A program made the position numbers and the translations under genes. Positions 9,515-31,778 of a DNA stretch of 64,000 bases are shown here, piece by piece. The stretch comes from Apostichopus japonicus. Its lineage: Eukaryota; Echinodermata; Holothuroidea; Aspidochirotida; Stichopodidae. Every line of letters begins with the position of its first letter. Positions within the stretch are counted from its first letter, which is position 1. The notes under the pieces were generated by a model. That model worked only from the letters and a program-made list of their open reading frames with translations. It was not told the DNA's origin and searched no databases. The stretch spans positions 45,810,111 to 45,874,110 of the forward strand of contig NC_092576.1 in assembly GCF_037975245.1 (NCBI RefSeq), written 5' to 3'.

Positions 9515-12500
9515 ATGAAACAACAGCACTGTCTTAGTCATTCCATAGTCCTTCTACTGTTGGTTTCAGTCGGTAGGTATATATTATAATTATATATATA
9601 TATGAACACTGTAACGATAACCAATCGTAACCATTTTTGAACGTGTCATGGAATTTTAGACCCTACATAATTGATTTACTTCAGCACGAAACATTCATGG
9701 TGAAGTGCTGTAATTTTGACACCTTTGCAGCACCTTAGTCTGAAAATGTCATCTATAACAGTGATTTCTATACAAGTGATAAAGCACAGCTTATTGGTGG
9801 CATACATATTTGGGAAGAAATATATTTATGACAATTGTGATATAGGAAATAAGTGGTTATGAACATTTGCTATCGATTAAATATCCATGTTTGTTCATAA
9901 TTCGGGTTTGTATCTTCTTGTTTAGTGACCTCACTCGACGAATGTGAGTCCCCTCAGTATCTTGAACTAGGAAAGTCTGGGGTCGTACGTTGTACTTTTG
10001 ATGGTGGATATCACAGTGTTTACTGGTACAAAAGTACCAACATTATCGGCCAGAAACCATTCATAGAAGACACACCTAGTGGTACAGCTGGTCCTGGATA
10101 CGAATCTGGAGAATTTGACATCAATGAGGATGGGTCTTTAATAATAAATGAAGTCTTCTTGGGACACGAAGCAACATTTACTGTAACAACATTTCATTCG
10201 GCCGAAGACATCCCTCCAACAATATCTGTCGATGTAAAAACTTTTGGTAAGTCCCTCTTTACCATTTAGTAATTAATTCTTTGGGATTATGGACATACGA
10301 TACGTTGACTTCCAGATGTTTATCTTACCCGCTGATCAAATGTCATATAATAAACCATTATTCCGTTTTAATATGTAATAAGTTTCTCTTGGGGTTTGTG
10401 TAAAAGGTGGTACTTCTATTGTACTTGAAACAAAATGACATGTATTAAAGACTTTGTGCCTTTTGAACATAACTGTTTGTTAACTCGTAAACTTTGATTC
10501 CACCCAACAGTGAAACCGGTACCAGCAGTTCCTCTCGTCAGTTATTGTTACAGCGAGGATAGTGTCTGTTTCATTCGATGGGATCAAAATTCAGATCTTA
10601 CCTGTACAATTCAAGAAGTGAGGCCAACTGCTGACTTAAGTTGGCAACTAAGGACAGCCGATGGTGACAAAAGTCTTAGTTTTGAAACTGTAGTGACTAA
10701 TGAAACTCTTACACAGACCATATCGGTTTCTATTATTGATCCTGATGTGTACTCATCACAACTGTCTCAACTCGTCTGCAAAGCACATCTTCACTTAGAT
10801 ATACTGCAGAGATATGAGACAGTTGTTTTTGTTTATAACACTGGGATAGAGACGCCCATTAATCATGTACATAATCTAAAGGTGGAGAGACATAGCTTGG
10901 TCAGGATCCCTTGCCCAGAAGGAGAAGTCAATGTATCGCTAGTTGTTTGGGAGAGACTGGTAGAAGACAGCAGATATGAGAGCCTGGTCTTCGGTATTTA
11001 TTCAAACACGGATGAACTCACACAACCATTATCTGAAGGGTACACATTGGGAGAGAATGGTACGCTAATAATATCCTCTGTAGGGGTGCACCATGAAGGT
11101 GTGTATACATGCACATACAGCAATGGCACACATGGAGGAGTGACACACTACGACCTTAATGTCTATGGTACGTTTGAAATTCTCTACACGCAATCAATCA
11201 TAGTTTGTTAAATAATTTTCGATTAGCGTTTATTTTTCAGAACGCTCTCTGATGTCTCAACATTGATATTTAGTTAAGAAGCCATCGATGAGAAGTAACA
11301 CTACAGCTACCAATTTGCATCCTTCACTTTGCTGTTTTTGTAGTAAATAAGACAGTAGTAGCAGTGGCGTGAGAAGTGGGGTGGAGACAGGGCCAATGGT
11401 ACCCCGCTTCAATTATCATATCTTTGACAATCCTTCGGGAGTTTTATAAAATTATTTCGGGTGTACACAACCCTGTTCAACCTCAAGCAAAATTACAGAA
11501 GTATTTAGCAGCACAAAATTCTGCGTTAAGACCTATTAATATACCTAACTTAAATATGCCCCAGAATGCACCATTTGAAACTTTCATTTTGTTTCTTACC
11601 ACTACCTCTATCAGTTTAGAGAAACTATGATCGTTACTTCTTATATGTATTTCAGTATACCCAGTTCCAGCATATCTGGAGATTGAGGGTTGCAACCATG
11701 AACAGTATTGTAGTGTGACGGTTATGGAAACAGGAAGTCTAACCTGCATGGTCAGTGGAATTCGGCCGGAAGTGAATCTTGAATGGAGAGGAATCAATGA
11801 TGAATCTTCTGAGAAAATAGAGTTCTATAACCACCAATCAAGTACCAAATCCAAGGGTGACACAACAGACATCATACTAACCGTTGACTACATGATCACA
11901 CAAACGGATGAAGAACAGAGACTAACATTGGAATGCAGGGCAACGGGGCAATATTCTGACCAATTCAAGTTGACCACCCATGTAGATTTATTGGTTGGTA
12001 AAAGTAAGTAGACATGCTAATTCGGAACATGACAAATTATGGATTGATACAGGCTTACCATTCCAACATATCAATCTAGTTGTTTACCTCAGGTATGGAT
12101 ATATGTCCAAGGAGTAAATTATTGAATTAGATCACTCTAATTAAAAAACAGCACAAGCATGAAACATTAACCGTCGTTACTGTTGGGCTAATTTAATGCA
12201 CTTTATGTTTTCTTTAAACGATATAGCAAGTTTGTAGCGAGTCCATAAATTGGCTGCTATGTTAGTAGTATATATAATCCTGTACTCTAATTACCATTTT
12301 ATAAAAGAACATTTCGAAAACAACTAATAATAACATGACATGTACCTTGACAAAAGCCAAATGATCGAAATCATGTGTAATTAAATATTAAGCATGACAG
12401 GTAACCGTACAGTAGTCAATGGTTGTATACGTCGATACAGTAAACTTCATAAGATATTAACTTAATGAAGATCAAAATGATCTACCTTTGTGTCTCATTT

Positions 12501-31300: not shown

Positions 31301-31778
31301 TGTAAACCTCTGTCAACATATTACAGTCTAGCTGTATAGACTGCATAGTGCAGTGCAGTACAGTGAGTCTGTCATATTGCCATTTTAGCAGTAAAAATAT
31401 ATTATTCCTGATCTATTTAACCATTAATCAAACATCTACGACAAAAAAAAGTAAGTTCCAATAACAGCCGCAATGTAATAAAAACTACAAACACATTAAT
31501 CATGAATATTTTGAAATCATTTACATCGTATGTCGATAGTGTTACCCCGTCTAAGAAAAACAGAAAACAATGGTATTAGTGATAAAAAATACCCCAATAT
31601 ATATATATATATATATATATATATATATATATATGTTTACTGAATAGTATTGGTAATTATTAAACTCTTTATATTATGAATATGCATGACAGAAACTGAT
31701 ATCTCTGTACTTACGCAAATAAAGCAGTTGTGTCACCATGATGACGCAAAGCATCCGGATAGTTAAACTGAATGTCAT
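22309..31778 (-). CDS. Gene D: Ig-ectodomain transmembrane NACHT receptor, complete
   Basis: Minus-strand exons: 31715-31778, 30818-31141, 29553-30191, 28628-28972, 27997-28122, 27532-27581, 27295-27337, 25616-27123, 25092-25300, 24762-24838, 24274-24332, 23833-23880, 23290-23319, 22309-22344. Phases agree and the sum is 3558 nt (1185 residues). The order matches gene B: signal peptide (MTFSLTIRMLCVIMVTQLL), V-like domain, two-Ig exon, fourth Ig, helix (VVTVVIAVLSIGTILSIATV), basic then acidic tail (CRRRR, IDDE), NACHT with EPGYGKST near 609-615 and VILDGFDEFP near 687-696, winged helix FYHPLFCEWYAAHYV, then the C-terminal module with exon lengths 209, 77, 59 and 48 nt identical to B. It lacks B's 75-nt tyrosine-containing tail exon. 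The terminal exon (ending EEGM, stop at 22309) has a strong acceptor but no counterpart in B or E and is tentative. Convergent with B; head to head with C. Confidence 0.85.
23132..23246. repeat. (TA)n microsatellite in the last intron of gene D
   Basis: Long TA tract with one TAAAT interruption near 23177. Confidence 0.95.
25616..27123 (-). CDS. Gene D NACHT exon
   Basis: A 1508-nt exon, phase 1 in and phase 0 out, entered at CTTCCTACAG/ACAAA and left at AAT/GTGAGT. Canonical P-loop GYGKST, Walker B ILDGFDEFP, sensor TTRSF and winged-helix FYHPLFCEWYAA are present, so ATP binding is expected to be intact. Same length as the gene E NACHT exon and close to gene B's. Confidence 0.93.
28428..28628. 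repeat. Short-unit tandem repeat abutting a splice donor in gene D
   Basis: About 200 bp of degenerate 10-11-bp units of the type TTGTACTACA, with CAGTGTACTA variants. Its right edge touches the donor of the fourth Ig exon: read on the minus strand, the intron starts GTAGTAC and runs straight into the array. Confidence 0.9.
31597..31634. repeat. (TA)n microsatellite in intron 1 of gene D
   Basis: Pure TA dinucleotide run of about 38 bp. Confidence 0.9.

Follow-up and report, generated by a model that had tools for sequence, protein, structure and literature searches.

Genes B and D, which lie on opposite strands of a 64,000-nucleotide stretch of the genome of Apostichopus japonicus (C16:45810111-45874110, hereafter the window), are in our reading NLRs of the AjNLRC4 kind that cross the membrane once, as type I proteins, and we give this reading, judged from the sequences, a probability of about 0.85. 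NLRs are textbook cytosolic sensors. In each of the two genes, the exons for a signal peptide, four immunoglobulin (Ig)-like domains, one transmembrane (TM) helix and a NACHT domain can be joined into a single phase-consistent model with a stop-free frame, which confirms what an initial annotation of this DNA had observed. Its interpretation, a membrane-spanning protein in which a NACHT is wired to an extracellular Ig sensor, agrees with the anatomy of a type I receptor and is partly supported; it is largely right, but the receptor is not new.

Gene B is read from the forward strand. Its first exon (9515..9572) encodes the signal peptide (MKQQHCLSHSIVLLLLVSV...) and ends in a phase 1 donor; it is followed by the exons for Ig-like domain 1 (9926..10246; V-set E=0.001, below the cut-off), for Ig-like domains 2 and 3 together (the double-Ig exon, 10511..11167), for Ig-like domain 4 (11656..12003) and for the TM helix (12865..12984; residues 477-495, Kyte-Doolittle hydropathy 3.25). 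The Ig and TM exons of B and D all have phase 1 at both ends, the arrangement that is classic for Ig exons. Between the membrane and the NACHT exon, gene B has an extra juxtamembrane exon of 75 nt (13106..13180), a first linker microexon that ends in DDEE (13331..13368, phase 1 to 0) and a second one encoding KMPMMKTK (13796..13820, phase 0 to 1). The NACHT exon (14167..15686, phase 0 at its end) carries the Walker A motif EPGYGKST, the Walker B motif ILDGFDE and the WHD/HD2-type signature FYHKLFSEWYAA. Downstream of it are an exon for a single LRR-like unit (15898..16106; 38.6% identity to D over 70 aa, no Pfam match) and a short tail exon, VQWYPSVIGYRLDLSNGFWK (16665..16723; 54% identity to D over 24 aa).

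Gene D, on the reverse strand, repeats this order: signal peptide (31715..31778), Ig-like domain 1 (30818..31141, where the acceptor could shift by a few codons), Ig-like domains 2 and 3 (29553..30191), Ig-like domain 4 (28625..28972, donor at 28628 or 28625), TM helix (27997..28122; residues 477-495, hydropathy 2.43), linker microexons CRRRRITQNAEYIDDE (27532..27581) and DLPMLKTLPHSDIT (27295..27337), NACHT (25616..27123) and the LRR-like exon (25092..25300). For the end of the NACHT exon we prefer 25616 (AAT/GTGAGT, phase 0 as in B) to the alternative 25612. Spliced up to and including the NACHT exon, gene B gives a frame of 1054 aa through GT-AG sites and gene D one of about 1034 aa, with alternatives at a few boundaries. 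The junctions that the initial annotation had singled out, 12984/13106, 13368/13796 and 13820/14167 in B and 27997/27581, 27532/27337 and 27295/27123 in D, are all GT-AG and phase-consistent in the genomic sequence. That annotation had also stressed two independent copies with matching exon lengths. The phases do match and the lengths correspond roughly, but they are not identical because B has the extra 75-nt exon, without counterpart in D, which adds the junction 13180/13331. The copies are not independent origins either: B and D are paralogs, with 42% protein identity in an alignment of 1068 columns that starts close to the N terminus and runs through the NACHT.

The Pfam NACHT model (PF05729) matches B with E=7.5e-14 and D with E=8.8e-11, and Walker A, Walker B and the NLR-type WHD/HD2 signature are all present in both. 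The nearest solved proteins to the NACHT by sequence are vertebrate NLRC4 (five of five PDB matches). When a low-confidence model of the NACHT was compared with known folds by Foldseek, an NLR was named in the title of 17 of the 18 PDB matches at E<=0.001, and the remaining match, 8h93 (SCMC), presumably also contains an NLR; the alignments to the 15 best chains, all with low TM-scores, extend over 420-488 columns, across the WHD/HD2 region. The alignments used for structure prediction contained window sequences only, and the predictions added little. As for the ectodomain, Pfam finds Ig_3 (3.6e-10) and V-set (2.2e-9) in B and a weak V-set match in D (0.008, below the cut-off), so that the Ig assignment of gene D rests on homology to B. 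Domains 2-4 of both proteins have C-W-C Ig patterns and the Ig region of both has N-glycosylation sequons, while domain 1 of B, D and AjNLRC4 is without the second canonical cysteine in its sequence and would accordingly count as an atypical Ig. The top hydropathy peak in both proteins is the TM helix; the second is the signal peptide in B, and in D a stretch inside the NACHT and the signal peptide, with similar scores. No Pfam LRR was matched in B or D at E<=0.05 in the post-NACHT exons modelled so far, where one LRR-like exon is conserved between the two genes.

We consider it unlikely that B and/or D are silent or decoy copies, or are used mainly as an Ig-TM isoform without the NACHT. In both genes, reading on past the TM donor soon leads to an in-frame stop, and therefore a NACHT-less membrane form is possible as a second isoform. 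However, in each gene the NACHT frame runs uninterrupted for about 500 codons and keeps conserved ATPase motifs, and between B and D synonymous change is near saturation while replacement change has been held down.

Another explanation is that each model is an artefact that joins neighbouring genes, one for an Ig-TM receptor and one for an NLR with its own start in or after the linker, and we regard this as very improbable. The genome comprises 671,581,487 bases in 35 contigs, and 20 NLR loci were fetched by NACHT similarity and chromosome spread, which makes the sample non-random. In 12 of these the Ig1, double-Ig and Ig4 exons are collinear with the NACHT on the same strand (L026 without a detected Ig1); the other eight have a NACHT without these Ig exons. 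The 12 loci, together with B, D and AjNLRC4, make up 15 Ig-linked loci, of which 13 were assembled into full models, L025 and L026 being counted for TM and linker. A phase-1 TM exon is found within 2.6 kb upstream of the NACHT at 14 of the 15 (L013 was missed), whereas identical thresholds over the same distance give none of 15 in antisense and none of the eight NLR loci without Igs. Candidate signal-peptide exons, called by a hydropathy scan and not by SignalP, and counted without a chance control, are present at 14 of the 15 Ig-linked loci, with B and D among them; the match in L026 is not credible.

The linker from TM to NACHT also argues against two genes, because its two microexons are phase-compatible, running from phase 1 to 0 and then from 0 to 1. 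They encode a usually basic-rich stretch ending in E and then, usually, a P-M/L motif. All 13 models have E at the end of the first microexon, and 11 of them have P followed by M or L in the second; these counts are biased toward the motif, since motif and position partly guided the choice of the linker exons among the candidates. A strict blind search recovered the two-microexon chain at eight of the 15 loci, B included (D, AjNLRC4, L010, L013, L014, L025 and L026 were missed). Over 40 dinucleotide shuffles the chain turned up at 0.03 loci on average and never at more than one, and antisense gave 0/15; the motif of this control was defined after the candidates had been inspected. Of the 13 assembled models, all match the fixed pattern for Walker A, nine that for Walker B and 11 that for the NLR-type WHD/HD2 signature. 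The distances of the double-Ig exons correlate with those of the NACHT exons (Mantel r=0.88, p=1e-4), a correlation that fits one gene and would also fit neighbours duplicating together.

The same order of exons recurs throughout the genome. A search with part of the double-Ig exon of B found at least 143 double-Ig places, a lower bound since 150 of 217 candidates were scored, and 105 of the 143 are on C16. At 50 of the 143, the same strand carries a NACHT exon no more than 8 kb downstream, and none of the three control placements (downstream on the opposite strand, upstream on the same strand, upstream on the opposite strand) gives a single case (0/143 each). One-to-one pairing of double-Ig and NACHT exons, downstream and on the same strand, yields 57 pairs, 50 within 8 kb and seven at 8-30 kb, and an additional pair was recognised by eye (C12:25115847 with C12:25112628). 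The far pairs are less secure because at 8-30 kb the 12 downstream same-strand cases compare with 2, 3 and 1 in the controls. The NACHT places entered, 68 for the one-to-one pairing and 151 for the control, were picked as looking relevant from three of the four NACHT searches, and both sets omit most of those on C17, C22, C14, C19 and part of C7. TM and linker were read in the DNA at 15 paired loci, and the other pairs are known by exon order and distance. First-look searches of the genome returned several hundred NACHT candidates (459-604 per search, of which the best 85-106 were scored), and the listed places are numerous on C7, C12, C16, C17 and C22.

A dense cluster of double-Ig places without a listed NACHT lies at C16:4.7-6.1 Mb. 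At L034 (C16:5.74 Mb), the sole locus of this cluster that was read, 6 kb of sequence contain a double-Ig exon, then a TM exon and, further on, a weak match to an LRR-like unit (E 0.024), with no match to a NACHT in those 6 kb. The double-Ig loci of the cluster are perhaps NACHT-less derivatives.

Further evidence comes from AjNLRC4, the A. japonicus Ig-TM-NACHT membrane receptor for Vibrio phagocytosis reported in 2021 (PMC8699970; for this and the other papers cited, our statements refer to the parts of the text available to us). Its primers EX-F and EX-R (one mismatch each) and qF and qR (no mismatch) map in order to C16:4497304-4499117. The gene model at C16:4.497 Mb has LRTD at residue 177, a TM helix, LWLLILLPSLVLLVGLLYFCK, at 483-503 and RIILEGEP at 600, which are the published positions of the caspase motif, the first TM and the NACHT of AjNLRC4; the part from residue 600 onward is encoded at C16:4501249-4502726. 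Position 177 depends on the Ig1 donor CAG/GTAAGG in L032, the better-scoring site, the downstream donor giving 188; the distance from TM to NACHT is independent of this choice. Since that distance includes both microexons, the published protein lends support to the linker. The siRNA printed for AjNLRC4 has its best fit within the gene across the predicted Ig4-TM exon junction, with two mismatches when spliced and four when unspliced, which makes the existence of such a spliced cDNA very likely; genome-wide, the sole site with one mismatch or fewer is on C9. AjNLRC4 (MN607598; PMC8699970, PMC11932488) shares with B and D the order of parts, homologous exons, the chromosome (C16), a TM at about residue 480 and a NACHT at about residue 600. 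It differs from them as a paralog does, with 29-43% identity when segments of B and D are compared with its locus by tblastn (B/D: Ig1 39%/36%, double-Ig 29%/31%, Ig4 33%/33%), and where it has LRTD, claimed to bind caspase, B has LRTA.

From the pairing, TM exon and linker controls and the published AjNLRC4 positions, we reject a read-through of two genes, and the siRNA that spans the splice junction points the same way. The initial annotation had argued against a gene-prediction fusion, and such a fusion is indeed very unlikely, given that the AjNLRC4 positions agree, including the distance from TM to NACHT. What speaks for two genes is that the TM exon (40199-40318) and the NACHT (from 52628) of gene E, elsewhere in the window, are 12 kb apart and may be separate, that a related double-Ig locus at C16:5.74 Mb has no detectable NACHT, and that the B and D models come from genomic sequence alone. 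This last point also belongs with several others that weigh against our reading of B and D as membrane NLRs. The stops just past the TM donors are one. All 13 assembled models are open throughout, which is a weak test given that any exon containing a stop had been discarded in choosing them, and the dN/dS of the TM-linker segment is 0.94 in one close pair (71 codons). No effector domain (CARD, PYD, DEATH, BIR or another named one) was matched in B or D by Pfam at E<=0.05 over the span that begins with the signal peptide and ends with the LRR-like exon. Lastly, the two predicted structures are of low confidence (pLDDT 55.5 and 56.7), and the Foldseek scores are low for both the NACHT (TMq 0.22-0.38 over the 18 matches) and the double-Ig (best E 5e-3, TMq about 0.2-0.3).

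An inverted topology with the NACHT outside and the Ig inside, as the authors of AjNLR-new proposed for that protein from the surface binding of a recombinant NACHT fragment and a TMHMM prediction (PMC13133943), is hardly credible for B and D, whose signal peptides, like those of their Ig-linked relatives (14 of 15 loci, B and D among them), are typical and whose sequons and C-W-C patterns lie in the Ig part. By analogy with the family, and not from the sequence of AjNLR-new itself, a signal peptide read as a TM helix could explain the inversion.

B and D, as membrane receptors with the NACHT inside, are additional members of a published receptor type and not the unusual new class that the initial annotation had seen in them. 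In the literature that we searched, the combination of Ig, TM and NACHT is described in the holothuroid papers cited here. AjNLR-new (PIK48001.1, 1197 aa) is a single A. japonicus protein that likewise unites Ig, TM and NACHT, and the same paper mentions several such genes in the species (PMC13133943); the orientation proposed for it is the opposite of the one that the data on the family of B and D favour. The V-set-containing NLRs of Chiridota heheva are of a related kind, with TM and topology undescribed in the available text (PMC8913654). The expansion of NLRs in A. japonicus is already in print (PMC5638244), and NACHT families and Ig families have been described, but apart (PMC9646362). 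The accessible parts of PMC13133943 and PMC5638244 give no gene count or exon structure for the Ig-TM-NACHT family. Relative to the literature so covered, our analysis adds the size of the family, its conserved linker and two problems in the AjNLRC4 reports.

The reports on AjNLRC4 describe membrane localisation, binding of microbes by the Ig part and phagocytosis, dimerisation and internalisation upon exposure to Vibrio, and an Ig-dependent lytic-death route through a caspase-1-like protein and MLKL (PMC8699970, PMC11932488). The first problem concerns the second TM claimed for the protein (776-795). In our model this stretch is LSDLCQIPLFFVLFAHITFE, within the NACHT exon, and its counterparts in B and D are LCQAPLFF and LCQVPLFF; being internal to the NACHT and common to B and D, it is in all likelihood no membrane helix, and we reject it as such. 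A single-pass receptor would explain the AjNLRC4 data better. The second problem lies in the printed AjNLRC4-IN F and IN R primers (PMC8699970), which match without mismatch two places on C14 that are 3.0 kb apart (C14:1474164-1477174) and have no other genome site within three mismatches; their best fits to the AjNLRC4 coding sequence up to the NACHT leave 10 and 12 mismatches. The IN R site is in an exon encoding a UBA domain (UBA_5, PF16577, 8.2e-18) whose best solved relative is sequestosome-1 (2.7e-13). Either the printed primer table contains an error, or the supposed NACHT protein of the actin pull-down came from a p62/SQSTM1-like gene. Because the printed primers match this gene, the link between NACHT and actin needs rechecking and the actin step of the pathway is insecure, while the Ig-based results are independent of the problem.

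A tree of the NACHT (FastTree, 30 sequences, 502 columns, rooted for display on the distant L001) places the eight loci without Igs in one clade (support 1.0), which groups with the 10-gene clade of B and D (0.94); AjNLRC4 and other Ig-linked genes fall outside that grouping. The tree suggests that some ectodomain-less NLRs may derive from Ig-TM ancestors. At these eight loci, neither a TM exon nor a clear N-terminal partner was found within about 7.3 kb, barring a possible start exon at L019. Upstream of that NLR, at L019:6615, an open frame starts with MGNKSSKKKGGKTKSQ, which resembles a myristoylation signal plus a polybasic stretch and is possibly another route to the membrane; the pattern was not found in the seven other Ig-less loci. 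We tentatively picture some 50 or more germline-encoded surface NLRs with variable Ig ectodomains and a shared NACHT switch, whose Ig-less branch may have lost the ectodomain and so moved from the surface inwards, a scenario that we hold with more doubt than confidence. Across 5 of the 78 possible pairs among the 13 models, dN/dS ranges from 0.09 to 0.94 and is below 1 in every computable segment, with dS saturated in many. Positive selection on the ectodomain was considered and is unsupported by these five pairs.

Two other genes of the window have Ig and TM exons. Gene E (36057-40318, forward strand) has Ig-like exons of another type, followed by its TM exon; its NACHT exon (52628-54135, forward strand) is intact, with about 34% identity to B and D and an altered Walker B, LLDGYDRS. 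The two parts of gene E may belong to a single gene with a long intron or to separate genes. Gene A (5781-2786, reverse strand) has Ig exons like those of gene E and a TM exon at about 2938-2786, and no NACHT match was found on the reverse strand up to the edge of the window.

B and D share the NACHT-WHD-HD2-type unit with vertebrate NLRC4, NAIP and NLRP3. The vertebrate proteins are cytosolic, with a death-fold N terminus and a long C-terminal LRR array, whereas B and D have an Ig-TM N terminus and one LRR-like unit recognised so far. As we envisage the mechanism, the Ig array outside the cell would bind microbial or cell-surface ligands, and the ligand would cluster the ectodomains, so that NACHT units gather beneath the plasma membrane. 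Binding of ATP would then drive oligomerisation of the NACHT, and the tail or the linker might recruit effectors. The sensor/switch logic of NLRs would thus be kept, with a sensor that is N-terminal and outside instead of a C-terminal cytosolic LRR.

With some 50 or more genes that apparently place an NLR switch under the plasma membrane, the extracellular triggering of NLR oligomerisation becomes testable in A. japonicus. There are now also concrete grounds for revisiting the signalling steps published for AjNLRC4, the one well-studied member. The family as a whole would represent a sizeable repertoire of innate receptors in an animal without antibodies.

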